A stretch of 22,228 nt of DNA from a virus: the IMG/VR virus record IMGVR_UViG_3300025313_001042, positions 1 to 22,228 of that record; one strand, written 5' to 3'. Positions 3,291 to 10,423 of the stretch are shown here, one piece after another; position 1 is the stretch's first letter; every line of letters begins with the position of its first letter. The position numbers were made by a program, and so were the translations under genes. Below the pieces are notes generated by a model that ran no database searches, had not been told where the DNA came from, and saw nothing but the letters and a program-made list of their open reading frames with translations.

Positions 3291-3476
3291 AAAAAAATTT
3301 TTCGAGCCTGGCGGCTCGCACTTCGTGGCGGGACGGATAAAGACTCCGGTTTACTGTTGGCTTCGCGTTTGGGTTTGGGAATACACCCGTTTCGACAGGA
3401 GAGCCAGGGCATAAGCCGCCACGCGAGGCGTGGCATGCCCTTCCCGGAATGAAGCCGACGAGTTTCCCACCAGCCA
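3291..3476. other. Hairpin-rich intergenic stretch
   Basis: No gene is seen between the terminator and the promoter at 3477. Two short hairpins are present: CGAGCC-TGGC-GGCTCG (3303-3318) and CCACGC-GAG-GCGTGG (3419-3433). The text around 3303-3340 resembles short dispersed repeats rather than coding DNA. Confidence 0.5.
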
Positions 3477-3505
3477 TTGACAGCACTTGGAGTATTTGGT
3501 ATATT
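3477..3505 (+). promoter_or_regulatory. Strong sigma-70-type promoter of the excisionase-like gene
   Basis: A perfect -35 TTGACA (3477-3482), a 17-base spacer and TATATT (3500-3505). The ATG of the gene starts at 3512, six bases after the -10, so the start codon should be at or next to the transcript 5' end. This is the same spacing as at 532/544. Confidence 0.85.
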
Positions 3506-3511
3506 TGGCTT

Positions 3512-3721
3512 ATGACCAAGACGACACTATCAACCAAAGAAGCGGCGGAGATACTGGAAGTCAGCGACCAAACCATTATCAACTGGTGGAAAGAAGGATT
3601 TATTGAAGGATACAAACTCAATCCGTCAAAGAGCAATTCGGCAATACGTGTCTCTAGGAAACGCATTGACCAAATACTTAGAGAACGAACGAACCCGAGA
3701 AGTCAGCCAACAGGAAAATAA
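3512..3721 (+). CDS. xis: Excisionase-like MerR-type HTH protein
   Basis: 69 residues starting MTKTTLSTKEAAEILEVSDQ. Residues 5-56 match the short winged-helix (excisionase/MerR, HTH_17) DNA-binding domain: LSTKEAAEILEVS as the first helices, TIINWWKEGFIEGYKL as recognition helix and turn, then RVSRKRIDQIL as the closing helix. The basic tail would add DNA contacts. Position fits: the tRNA-derived att core is about 165 bp downstream and the integrase lies beyond, so a directionality factor is the likely role, although transcription control cannot be excluded. It has its own strong promoter and probably a leaderless message. The upstream start at 3449 is rejected because it overlaps the promoter. 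Confidence 0.8.
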   Translation: MTKTTLSTKEAAEILEVSDQTIINWWKEGFIEGYKLNPSKSNSAIRVSRKRIDQILRERTNPRSQPTGK

Positions 3722-3731
3722 CGAAACTGCA

Positions 3732-3791
3732 ATGTTTCTTTTCCTGTTTGTCGTCGTCTGGTTAGTTGCACTAGAATTCGGCCATAAGTAA
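3732..3791 (+). CDS. Possible 19-residue membrane peptide
   Basis: A very short frame, MFLFLFVVVWLVALEFGHK, that is one hydrophobic helix. It lies 10 bases after the excisionase-like gene, and an AGGAAA sequence is present upstream at poor distance. Such mini-proteins occur in phages, but chance is possible. Its end runs into the terminator hairpin serving the opposite strand. Confidence 0.3.
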   Translation: MFLFLFVVVWLVALEFGHK

Positions 3792-3886: not shown

Positions 3887-3941
3887 AGCGGGTGATGGGA
3901 CTCGAACCCACGATATCTTGCTTGGGAAGCAAGCGTTCTAC
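3887..3941 (-). other. attP core: 3' part of tRNA-Gly(CCC)
   Basis: Read on the minus strand, this is tRNA-Gly from the 3' side of the D arm to the discriminator: GTAGAAC, anticodon arm CTTGC-TTCCCAA-GCAAG with anticodon CCC, T arm GTGGG-TTCGAGT-CCCAT, acceptor CACCCGC and a final T. The 5' half (acceptor 5' strand and D stem) is missing and replaced by unrelated sequence, so it is not a functional tRNA. Tyrosine integrases commonly use such tRNA 3' ends as attachment sites. The fragment ends 15 bp from the integrase stop codon. Excisionase-like and integrase genes lie on either side. Confidence 0.85.
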
Positions 3942-3956
3942 AGTGGGAATAGTACA

Positions 3957-4796
3957 TTATAAATCCTTTACGAGCTTCGAAACAGGCAAATACTGACGCA
4001 TGGAATCCAGCTTCAGGGTGCGAGTGTAGCGATGGATCATCTCTGAATTATTCCACCGGCCCCCCTCCATCAACACACGTTCAGGAGCACCATTCTCCGT
4101 GGCAAGCACGGCGAAAGTACGACGAAAATCATGCGGCGAAAGTTTTATGCCAATTCGCCGACCCCATTCCCTGACAATCGACTGCAACCCTTCGGGAGTC
4201 AGCCCACCCCCCGTAAAAACATTCGTGAATAAAAACCCCTGCCCATCCGCAACCTCGCGGTAATGCAGCCAGCGCGCGATATTCTCGGCGGTCTCGGGGG
4301 AAAAAACAGCCGCCGACCACTGACCACCCTTGACGATCACTTGTAAAACACGTTGATTCAGATCAGTATCCGCTTGCTGAAGCCGGCAGATCTCCGAACA
4401 GCGCAGGCCCGTATCCAACGCCACAGACGCAATCGCCAGATCACGAGTCCCCTTCGACGTATACGGATCAAATGAAGCCAGCAACCGCAAGGCCACATCC
4501 GCACTCAAAGCGCGCTGTGGCTTGCCAGCAACACGCTTCAACTTCGCCGACAATGCAGGATGACTGCCATACTTCCATGAAAGATATTTCTGACAGGCAG
4601 CCAGGGCAACGCAGCGCCGGCTACTCCCCCACTCAGGCTTAGAGACAAACTCAATCAATCCAGCAGCCGAGAGATCTGCAGGGTCACACGATTTGCTAAG
4701 CAAATCGGACAGGAAGCGGAAAAGCACACTTGCATAAGTGCGCTTGGTTGTGTCTGCAAGCGGAAACGACGCAAGGAACTCTCGAACCCGAATCAT
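3957..4796 (-). CDS. int: Tyrosine recombinase / phage integrase
   Basis: 279 residues, the normal size for a compact tyrosine integrase. Residues 1-90 form the SAM-like core-binding domain (TKRTYASVLFRFLSDLL). The catalytic domain follows, with Arg132 (TGLRCSEICRL), Lys156 (VKGGQW), His222-x-x-Arg225 (HDFRRTF), Trp248 (GGRW) and the nucleophile Tyr257 (HRYTR). The usual second histidine is replaced by Trp, as in Cre. The start has a strong GGAGGTG seven bases upstream. The enzyme should join the phage attP (3887-3941) to a host tRNA-Gly(CCC) gene. It is the only clear leftward gene and is separated from the rightward genes by a structured intergenic region. Confidence 0.93.
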   Translation of the reverse strand: MIRVREFLASFPLADTTKRTYASVLFRFLSDLLSKSCDPADLSAAGLIEFVSKPEWGSSRRCVALAACQKYLSWKYGSHPALSAKLKRVAGKPQRALSADVALRLLASFDPYTSKGTRDLAIASVALDTGLRCSEICRLQQADTDLNQRVLQVIVKGGQWSAAVFSPETAENIARWLHYREVADGQGFLFTNVFTGGGLTPEGLQSIVREWGRRIGIKLSPHDFRRTFAVLATENGAPERVLMEGGRWNNSEMIHRYTRTLKLDSMRQYLPVSKLVKDL

Positions 4797-4871
4797 ATAG
4801 CACCTCCACGATCAGAAACTAGACGAAAGCGACAAGCGTTTGTAACTCACACTTTGGTAAGGCGTCGCCAT

Positions 4872-4917
4872 CTACAAAAACGGGAGGGCTCGAAGAGCCC
4901 GAGCCCTGTTTTTGTAG
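4872..4917. terminator. Symmetrical hairpin in the divergent int/5013 region
   Basis: CTACAAAAAC (4872-4881) and GTTTTTGTAG (4908-4917) form a perfect 10-bp inverted pair enclosing a GC-rich inner hairpin (GGGCTC-GAA-GAGCCC, 4886-4900). With A-runs on one side and T-runs on the other it could terminate in both directions. A bidirectional terminator between divergent genes is unusual, so an operator or protein-binding dyad is also possible. Confidence 0.6.
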
Positions 4918-4942
4918 ACGCAACAAATGTCACCAACCGCGC

Positions 4943-4957
4943 GGGAGAATCCAGCAA
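4943..4957 (+). repeat. Orphan start-site module without a gene
   Basis: GGGAGAATCCAGCAA here repeats the module GGAGAATCCAGCAAATG found 56 bp later before the 5013 gene, but is followed by GAC instead of ATG. It may mark a deleted gene or a past duplication. Confidence 0.55.
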
Positions 4958-5012
4958 GACAATCACACACGATTAGTGACAATCCGATTTTACCAGAAGG
5001 AGAATCCAGCAA

Positions 5013-5204
5013 ATGAACAAAAAGGACGATGTATTTCGCAATGGCGAGAACGGCGCGCAGCGCCAAACCACTCGCTATGATGTGCTCGATGCACAGAGGG
5101 ACGGTAAATTCCCCGTCCGAGACGGCGAGACCGGACACCCCATCGGCTCAGACGGCAAGACTGATTGGGCACGCGTGATCCGGGAGGCGAACGAAGAACA
5201 ATGA
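5013..5204 (+). CDS. Unknown small phage protein
   Basis: 63 residues, hydrophilic, rich in Gly, Asp and Arg, with a middle DGKFPVRDGETGHPIGSDGK of repeated short turns. The start is set by the module AAGGAGAATCCAGCAAATG. The stop overlaps the next start (ATGA). No family is recognised. As first gene of the rightward operon after the integrase it would be expressed with the two genes that follow. Confidence 0.65.
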   Translation: MNKKDDVFRNGENGAQRQTTRYDVLDAQRDGKFPVRDGETGHPIGSDGKTDWARVIREANEEQ

Positions 5205-5425
5205 CCAATACGACAAGTAGAGTACTAGCGGCCATCACGGATTATTGGCGGGAGAACGCCATCCCGCCAACCATCCGCAACATACAAGCAGCAACAGGCT
5301 TACGCTCTACATCAGCAGTTCGTCACTGCTACCTGAAACTCGAAAAATACGGGGCAATCAAAAGAATAAAGAGCAAGCCTGTACCAATCTCAATCTATCT
5401 ACTCATAAGGAGAAACCAGCAATGA
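5201..5425 (+). CDS. LexA-like winged-helix DNA-binding protein
   Basis: 74 residues matching the LexA N-terminal winged-helix domain: ITDYWRENAIPPTIRNIQAATGLRSTSAVRHCYLKLEKYGAIKR (residues 12-55) follows the LexA order of helix, PPT-R-I, GL-S-S-V and LE-GI-R. The autoproteolytic domain of LexA/CI repressors is absent, so it cannot be self-cleaved. A small DNA-binding regulator of phage or host promoters is likely. The start overlaps the previous stop (ATGA, 5201-5204) and the stop overlaps the next start at 5422. Its last residues, IRRNQQ, are simply the next gene's start module read in another frame, so the true functional part ends before. Confidence 0.75.
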   Translation: MTNTTSRVLAAITDYWRENAIPPTIRNIQAATGLRSTSAVRHCYLKLEKYGAIKRIKSKPVPISIYLLIRRNQQ

Positions 5426-7044: not shown

Positions 7045-7509
7045 ATGAGCCGCAAGATCATAGTCACAGGAAAAGAAGTATGGGAAGGGCGCGCCAGCAA
7101 CTACGCGCGCTACTACCAAATGTTGCAGACAGGCCAGGCACAGGGCGAACACTTCAGACGCCTCGTGCTCGAAGCACTCCAACCCCTTCCAAAGCCACAC
7201 ATAAACCTGTTTGGGGCATTGGAAGCCTCCCTATACCCAGGCCATGACAATTACACGTTCTGGACAGCCTTTCAAAACCTGCAAATGGCAAGGTTTGATT
7301 GCAAGGAATTTGACGGTTCAGAACTGCTAATTAGATGGTTTTGGTCAGAGCAGGCATGGTCTGAATATGTGACCGAGTTCAACGCATTACCCGAACCAGT
7401 ACCGGCCTACCACTACACAGAAAAGAACGGCTACCCCGAACTGGAACCCTATTGTTACCCTGTGTACAACTCCCGGACAACCCCGGTACAACTTCTTTCG
7501 CATAAGTAA
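7045..7509 (+). CDS. Unknown 154-residue protein beside the AGTTGTAC array
   Basis: Start chosen at 7045 because of TAGGAGAG eight bases upstream; an in-frame ATG at 7024 lacks a site. The protein is aromatic-rich (several Tyr/Trp-rich stretches such as SNYARYYQMLQ, TFWTAFQNLQ and LIRWFWSEQAW) and looks like a folded globular domain with mixed helices. No family is recognised. The last 15 codons run into the AGTTGTAC array, with two inverted copies coding for VYNSR and PVQLL. Proteins next to iteron arrays are often their binding partners, but nothing in this sequence shows a known replication-initiator fold. Confidence 0.65.
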   Translation: MSRKIIVTGKEVWEGRASNYARYYQMLQTGQAQGEHFRRLVLEALQPLPKPHINLFGALEASLYPGHDNYTFWTAFQNLQMARFDCKEFDGSELLIRWFWSEQAWSEYVTEFNALPEPVPAYHYTEKNGYPELEPYCYPVYNSRTTPVQLLSHK

Positions 7510-7663
7510 AAGTTGTACCCAAAAAGGCAAAGTTGTACACAGTTTTGAGAGTTGTACCACGAAAGGGCGAGTTGTGGCAAAAGTTGTACACAGGCCGAGT
7601 GGTACAACTTTACTCTACCAAATCTTCACAATTACTCTACAAAGAAAAGTTGTCCCGTTGTAC
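7464..7663. repeat. Array of AGTTGTAC sites (iteron- or operator-like)
   Basis: Seven exact copies of the 8-mer AGTTGTAC: plus strand at 7511, 7531, 7550 and 7582; minus strand at 7464, 7486 and 7602. Near-copies occur at 7475 (inverted GTTGTCC), 7570, 7649 and 7657. Most neighbours are 19-22 bp apart, about two helical turns, so bound proteins would line up on one face. The array spans the end of the 7045 gene and the gap before 7743. AT-rich stretches lie at 7608-7650 and 7683-7710. This is typical of iteron origins or cooperative repressor sites. Confidence 0.7.
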
Positions 7664-7742
7664 ACACCCGCTACTACTACTACTGATAACTATATAAACG
7701 TATTCAAAAAGAGAGACTCAAATGATAGAAGGCAAACCAACC

Positions 7743-9856: not shown

Positions 9857-10423
9857 ATGGAACAATTATTCAAAATCGTTTCGATCATCGACCTCATGAG
9901 GGACAACTACAACCATCATGCTTCACGCGTGGCAGAGTACACCGTCAAACTGGCCGAAGCAATGGGCATACCGGACATAGAACTCATCGAAGCCGGAGCA
10001 CATTTACACGACATAGGAAAATTACTCGTATCCAGAGATATATTGAATCTGGAACGCAAACTAAAACCGGATGAACGGGAAAAAGTAGAGCAGCATTCAC
10101 GCCTGGGTTGGGCAATCATGTCACAGGCGGACTACGATCCAATCATCACAAATATGGCACTAAGCCATCACGAGAAATGGGACGGCTCAGGATACCCGGA
10201 CAAACTCTCAGGCCAGCAAATACCCCTGCCTGTCAGAATGCTCTCCGTGTGCGACGTGTACGACGCACTGACCAATCAACGACCCTATCGGAACCGCTAC
10301 ACCTACAACTTCGCAAAATCATACATCCAGGGACTAAAGGGCATAGATTTTGACCCGGAAGTCGTGGATGTGTTTTTCGACAAGGTAATACCCACAGAAG
10401 AAACAGGGAAGGTGGACGGATGA
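9857..10423 (+). CDS. HD-GYP cyclic-dinucleotide phosphodiesterase
   Basis: 188 residues that are one complete HD-GYP domain with no sensor domain. The motifs are in order: HHASRV (20-25), HLHDIGK with catalytic His51-Asp52, His80, ALSHHEKWDGSGYP with His104, His105 and the GYP signature (112-114), then Asp133 in VCDVYDAL and QRPYR. The DFDPEVVDVF end matches the family. HD-GYP enzymes hydrolyse cyclic di-GMP, and some hydrolyse 3'3'-cGAMP, in the cytoplasm using two or three metal ions. All metal ligands visible here are conserved, so activity is expected. It follows a terminator and lies upstream of the packaging genes with an ATGA overlap to the next gene. Roles could be control of host second messengers at the lytic switch or removal of a CBASS defence signal; this is inference. 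Confidence 0.9.
   Translation: MEQLFKIVSIIDLMRDNYNHHASRVAEYTVKLAEAMGIPDIELIEAGAHLHDIGKLLVSRDILNLERKLKPDEREKVEQHSRLGWAIMSQADYDPIITNMALSHHEKWDGSGYPDKLSGQQIPLPVRMLSVCDVYDALTNQRPYRNRYTYNFAKSYIQGLKGIDFDPEVVDVFFDKVIPTEETGKVDG

Follow-up and report, generated by a model that had tools for sequence, protein, structure and literature searches.

The window analysed here, 22,228 nucleotides making up a linear IMG/VR virus contig of 22.2 kb, harbours a dense cluster of short repeats behind the gene of a small protein, gp7045, and the question raised by this locus is what kind of site the cluster forms and which protein reads it. The original prediction proposed replication iterons or a cooperatively bound operator. 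The answer considered most probable, at about 0.77 on the basis of sequence comparison, is that the region of about 7460-7720 is a replication origin on the plan of oriC, belonging to a temperate Caudoviricetes phage of Anaerolineales-like Chloroflexota and opened by the host DnaA. The features of the locus, in window positions, are:

7045-7509, + strand: gp7045, 154 aa, candidate partner of the array
7464(-), 7486(-), 7511(+), 7531(+), 7550(+), 7582(+) and 7602(-): distal box array of AGTTGTAC sites, with a near-copy at 7570(+); span 7464-7609
7611-7617 and 7633-7639, - strand: two copies of the accessory motif TAGAGTA, between distal and proximal boxes
7648-7655, + strand: diverged AGTTGTCC, which forms the proximal tandem pair together with the box downstream of it
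7658-7666, + strand: proximal DnaA-box-like site TTGTACACA, 2 mismatches to TTATCCACA
7667-7670, + strand: GC-rich linker CCCG, 4 bp
7671-7685, - strand: DnaA-trio run, CTACTACTACTACTG on the + strand and 3'-GAT-GAT-GAT-GAT-GAC-5' on the - strand
7683-7722, + strand: AT-rich candidate unwinding region, 72.5% AT

An exact count over the whole 22.2-kb record bore out the seven clustered copies in both orientations that had been predicted. The 8-mer AGTTGTAC occurs four times on the + and three times on the - strand, all within 7464-7609, and zero exact copies were found in the rest of the record; the expected count in the window is 0.32 and none of the shuffles contained 7 copies. At least four near-copies had been claimed as well. 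Those at 7570 (AGTTGTGG), 7648 (AGTTGTCC) and 7656 (CGTTGTAC) stand, and through them the array reaches 7663, while 7598 (AGTGGTAC) was rejected as a separate near-copy, being merely an overlap of the 7602 site. The first two sites sit within the 3' end of the gp7045 reading frame. Start-to-start spacing of the AGTTGTAC sites is 22, 25, 20, 19, 32 (20+12 via the 7570 near-copy) and 20 bp. With 3 of the 7 exact copies inverted and a spacing of 19-32 bp, the array does not consist of the tandem direct repeats in uniform orientation that are expected of iterons. The distal sites continue as TTGTACACA in three cases and otherwise as ACCGG, ACCCA, ACCAC (twice) and GGCAA. Inside the array no TTATCCACA was found at up to 1 mismatch, and the distal boxes therefore do not conform to the host DnaA-box consensus.

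Most of the information in the array region is carried by its end, at 7658-7690, which lies partly beyond the predicted cluster (7464-7663). This end reads TTGTACACA-CCCG-CTACTACTACTACTG and is followed by AT-rich DNA; the longer stretch of 7648-7700 reads AGTTGTCCCG-TTGTACACA-CCCG-CTACTACTACTACTGATAACTATATAAACG. According to published criteria a basal unwinding system (BUS) consists of a DnaA-box and, no more than 16 bp further on, three or more DnaA-trios, of which 3'-GAT-5' is the commonest; the GC-rich gap is ~4 bp in bacterial BUS, and tandem sites adjoining the trios are their commonest arrangement (PMC8287927). The window element has four consecutive 3'-GAT-5' trios plus GAC, the only such run in the window. 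Its box TTGTACACA lies within 16 bp of the trios and is oriented toward them, as in the host elements L197 and L224 described below, and the GC-rich CCCG and adjacent AT-rich DNA are also in place. AT-rich DNA after the array had been predicted correctly: the 40-bp stretch just past 7670 is 75% AT compared to 48% for the window, which places it in the top 0.06% of 40-bp windows. The BUS at 7658 is the sole such element in the window on both strands, and 0 of 300 dinucleotide-preserving shuffles of the whole window had any; at sequence level both the element and its uniqueness are plain. The proximal boxes of B. subtilis must have the right orientation, while distal boxes act remotely, in either orientation and helically phased (PMC6669920), and the mixed orientation of the distal sites in the window fits this behaviour. 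GC skew, which had been proposed as a check, does not centre on the array; it falls steadily through the window and marks no origin.

The hosts of this phage group are likely Anaerolineales (Chloroflexota). Relatives were collected as TerL homologues: 59 of the loci are viral and three lie in Chloroflexi/Anaerolineales MAGs, and the latter provide the host link. Paired TTATCCACA, mostly 20-22 bp apart, was found in 44 of 61 Anaerolineales genomes, with 0 control matches. The oriC beside dnaA in L197 ends in TTTTACACA-GGGC-CTACTACTGCTAC (also given as TTTTACACA-GGGC-CTACTACTGCTACTTTTTAAT), and L224, another host box cluster, ends in CTGTACACA-CCCC-CTACTACGAC (also given as CTGTACACA-CCCC-CTACTACGACAACG). 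Further end elements of host chromosomes read ...AAGCCC-CTACTACGAATACGAAT (L204) and ...CAGCCC-CTACTATCACTAC (L196). The end of the related phage L130, ATGTACACA-CCCC-CTACTAAGACGAC, nearly equals that of L224. The phage element and the host oriC element match at the level of sequence. All sampled host DnaA proteins have the recognition helix GGRDHTTV/I, once GGRDHSTV. Because this helix is conserved, altered specificity of the host DnaA was rejected as the cause of box drift, and the phage boxes have probably not drifted in step with the host protein. An obvious AGTTGTAC origin array was found in 0 of 199 Anaerolineae chromosomes. Paired AGTTGTAC occurs in 10 of 199, where the matched words look like tandem or interspersed repeats, and these chromosomes were rejected as carriers of AGTTGTAC arrays. 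At least some viral contigs also have paired AGTTGTAC; among the matches listed, most are repeats within coding sequence, spaced by multiples of 3 bp.

Wherever sequence 5' of the genes for the SH3 lipoprotein and the HTH protein is present, the related phages show two forms of this locus. In the array form a small protein precedes a non-coding array whose end consists of a box, a short linker and triplets of the CTACTA type. The small protein is of the gp7045 type in the window, L129/L130, L155, L156 and L161, and of a different type in L128, L132, L140, L164, L166 and L171, and by weak match in L176. In the Rep form the place is taken by a Rep gene with in-gene repeats (L122, L126, L136, L145, L147, L159; L136 and L122 share 98% identity). 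All five Reps scanned have an N-terminal HTH_36 domain, and DnaA_N was detected in L122, L126 and L145. The in-gene repeats differ in sequence from those of the window; examples are GGGTGACATTCCTTC in L122 (Rep at 1482-2165), GGGTGTCATTCCTTC in L126 (Rep at 4432-5181) and GGGTGCAATCCCTTC in L147. An unwinding element is absent from this locus in all six Rep-type relatives, and array and Rep gene exclude each other in the sequences compared. At least 3 changes between the forms can be counted on the TerL tree, five by parsimony, and the TerL proteins of the window and of the Rep-type L122 are 93% identical. These swaps with a Rep gene at one locus between close relatives indicate that the array holds the slot of a replication-initiation module.

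A search for the array in related phages had been proposed; in 11 TerL relatives a box array with this end element occupies the corresponding locus. The box-linker-CTACTA-like end is visible in 12 of 12 array-type phages (the window and the 11 relatives). A strict end pattern was found in 9 of 12 array-form origins, compared to 0.15 expected; L155 and L166 are variants, and L130 was counted outside the 9 because the scanned span was too short, its element being visible on full reading. In 10 of the 11 relatives, a CCACA or TACACA box of matching orientation takes the position of the window's proximal box. The linker, 2-4 bp in most relatives, is GGCC, CCCC, TGCG, AGCC, GGCT, GACT, GGG or GG. 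As judged from these sequences, position and linker length are conserved across divergent phages. The distal boxes differ more widely and form a gradient that extends to perfect DnaA boxes. Perfect TTATCCACA makes up the series in L140 (8 exact), L161 (7) and L176 (3), and mixtures occur in L156. L130 has TTGTACACA plus a single TTATCCACA and a single TTGTCCACA, and TTCTTTCCACA is the distal box of L128, L132, L164, L166 and L171, with two additional AGTTGTACACA in L132. In L155 the distal word is TTGTACC(TT), TTGTACCTT, and in the window it is AGTTGTAC(A/C). The motif TAGAGTA has 9 copies in five phage origins (window, L130, L132, L164, L166) out of 28 in total in 648 kb of related phage sequence. 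In those five origins it is usually paired and stands between distal and proximal boxes, and its orientation is opposite in the L132 type.

Two proteins had been named as possible partners of the array. The 8117 HTH protein is unlikely and was rejected as a dedicated partner, since its homologues are common to both locus forms and thus also occur in phages lacking the array. gp7045 is a plausible partner, because its type or the alternative small protein is present, among the relatives compared, only with an array-type locus. Homologues of gp7045 were found in L130, L155, L156 and L161, each directly 5' of the same kind of array, in shallow alignments of 22-27% identity. gp7045 showed no Pfam or PHROG match and no recognisable DNA-binding or helicase-loading domain, and its structure model (pLDDT 66) had no PDB match. 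No PDB match was obtained for the modelled small protein of the L132 type either; the small-protein models are of low or middling confidence. Single-sequence searches with gp7045 and with the integrase gave zero matches.

The remaining genes of the record include TerS, TerL, portal and head genes, and the following:

3449-3721: excisionase-like protein
3957-4796, - strand: integrase
5165-5425: LexA-type DNA-binding protein

A tRNA-like stretch at 3893-3942 on the - strand (Rfam RF00005, 29.2 bits, just over threshold) directly adjoins the integrase gene. ARAGORN found no full tRNA there, and the stretch looks like the partial tRNA copy of an attachment site. A phage able to replicate as a plasmid had been suggested; together with the integrase, excisionase-like and LexA-like genes the tRNA-like stretch points, by gene content, to an integrating temperate phage. 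An HD-domain protein at 9857-10423 (Pfam HD_5, E 2.5e-30), just 5' of the packaging genes, is kept in several relatives. A YabA match of the 8418 protein (E 0.007) was too weak and was set aside. Among the window proteins scanned there was no polymerase, primase, helicase or initiator and neither parA nor parB. No initiator domain was detected in gp7045 or its scanned neighbours in this incomplete fragment, at the locus where the Rep-type relatives have one. An initiator gene could also lie beyond the ends of this linear fragment.

The prediction of a replication origin is supported by the end element, by its place at a homologous locus in related phages and by its agreement with the oriC of the host. 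As the origin is built like a host oriC, the phage probably uses the host initiator DnaA and not a full initiator of its own. We infer from these comparisons that the site is bound by host DnaA and fires, and that gp7045 has a role. Host DnaA would bind the proximal box TTGTACACA, with the distal array supplying a high local concentration of the initiator. DnaA would then extend as a filament onto the trio strand and stretch it, the AT-rich DNA would open and the host helicase would be loaded there, and gp7045 may bind the diverged distal sites or help to load DnaA. CACA is the part of the box read most strongly by DnaA (domain IV). The main weakness of a reading by host DnaA alone is the loss of this part in the distal sites: AGTTGT is invariant in the nine window sites, while CACA is missing from 5 of the 8 distal sites and kept in only three of them and in the proximal site, which itself deviates from TTATCCACA. 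A second, phage-encoded reader is therefore suspected. Tentatively, the origin may be a hybrid in transition, its unwinding core kept for host DnaA and its distal boxes re-coded for a small phage protein that delivers DnaA. The re-coded words could then possibly be AGTTGTAC in the window, TTGTACCTT in L155 and TTCTTTCCACA in the L132 type, with gp7045 or an unrelated counterpart as reader.

The same invariance of AGTTGT beside a variable CACA would also fit an origin at which gp7045, or a phage initiator encoded outside the fragment, bound AGTTGTAC as an iteron and opened the AT-rich DNA by itself, the DnaA-like end being an ancestral residue. The word specific to L155, which has a gp7045 homologue, the two unrelated types of small protein that accompany the array-type locus only, and the Rep-type relatives with initiator modules swapped at the locus agree with such an origin. 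However, the trio run, the linker length and the proximal CACA are retained in diverged arrays, the same small-protein families also occur with perfect TTATCCACA arrays (L161, L156, L140, L176), and gp7045 has no recognisable domain of the kind that such a role calls for. Iterons with a dedicated Rep, as originally predicted, are unsupported in the usual sense, since no recognisable initiator lies beside the array and what is conserved is the unwinding element of host type and not the repeat word; an iteron-type origin is considered unlikely.

Much less probable still is a cooperative operator that would control gp7045, the lipoprotein gene downstream or both, with a phage regulator, for example the 8117 HTH protein, binding to it. 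The location of the array between two genes and its helical phasing would suit cooperative binding, but 8117 homologues are also present in Rep-type phages without such an array, and a promoter and terminator scan, which did not include Chloroflexota promoter types, was empty at the array, with no sigma-70-like promoter. An operator would also leave unexplained the trios, linker and AT-rich end that are common to host oriC. Clusters of DnaA boxes of the datA type sequester DnaA elsewhere, and a cluster without trios occurs in Escherichia phage P483. It is nevertheless very improbable that the array only titrates DnaA or acts as a centromere, without unwinding, as the unwinding element is the most conserved part of the locus and partition genes were lacking among the proteins scanned.

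Three kinds of known system come closest to the locus. It resembles the bacterial oriC BUS of the B. subtilis incC type (PMC6669920, PMC8287927) in its helically spaced distal boxes, oriented proximal pair, short GC linker, 3'-GAT-5' trio run and AT-rich unwinding region. Unlike bacterial BUS, it belongs to a phage that has no dnaA, it follows a small phage gene instead of lying in a dnaA region, and its proximal TTGTACACA and distal AGTTGTAC(A/C) deviate from TTATCCACA. With iteron origins of plasmids and lambdoid phages (O protein) it shares multiple short repeats, set about two helical turns apart, next to AT-rich DNA. However, its repeats lie neither in nor beside a recognisable initiator gene, and its conserved element is a DnaA-trio module; the true counterpart of the iteron class is found in the Rep-type relatives with their HTH_36 domain and in-gene repeats. 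The plasmid origins pSC101, RK2 and P1 oriR contain accessory DnaA boxes, and there DnaA assists a Rep. The window likewise has DnaA boxes on a mobile element, but no Rep was found and the unwinding module is complete and of the chromosomal type.

Similar arrangements were found in other viruses. TTATCCACA followed by CTACTACTA at 2-16 bp occurs in 69 stretches in IMG/VR. In total 73 motif instances, three of them from a second pattern, were read, and boxes were counted in the 350 bp upstream, with the downstream side as control. At least 4 DnaA boxes were present upstream in 27 of the 73 instances, while none had at least 3 in the downstream control. Of 25 such viral records checked, none had dnaA and 11 had a phage terminase. 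The complete gokushovirus genome KT264804.1 (L336, an ssDNA phage of 4785 nt) shows the same arrangement at about 3620-3770, where TTATCCACATTTCCACAGCACCCTACTACTACTACTA stands after four further boxes and the TTATCCACA cluster ends in a tandem box plus CTACTACTACTACTA. This oriC-like element is in a phage of a family unrelated to the window group. In the T7-like Escherichia phage P483 (L338) an intergenic tandem array of about six TTATCCACA-like boxes, without trios, lies at about 37330-37410. A limited open-access literature search, which does not prove absence, found no papers reporting DnaA-trios on phages.

In the common view, a phage supplies an initiator itself, or uses one to recruit proteins of the host. 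If the reading of this locus as an oriC-type origin is true, phages without dnaA start replication directly with host DnaA, and their copy number is tied to the replication switch of the host. If the distal boxes have indeed been re-coded for a small phage protein, the phage origin would no longer depend on the timing of host DnaA or have to compete with oriC. The natural gradation between perfect DnaA boxes and re-coded sites, together with the repeated Rep swaps, offers a direct system for tests of the co-evolution of origin and initiator. The motif also enables origins to be found in uncultivated phages, here in a gokushovirus too.
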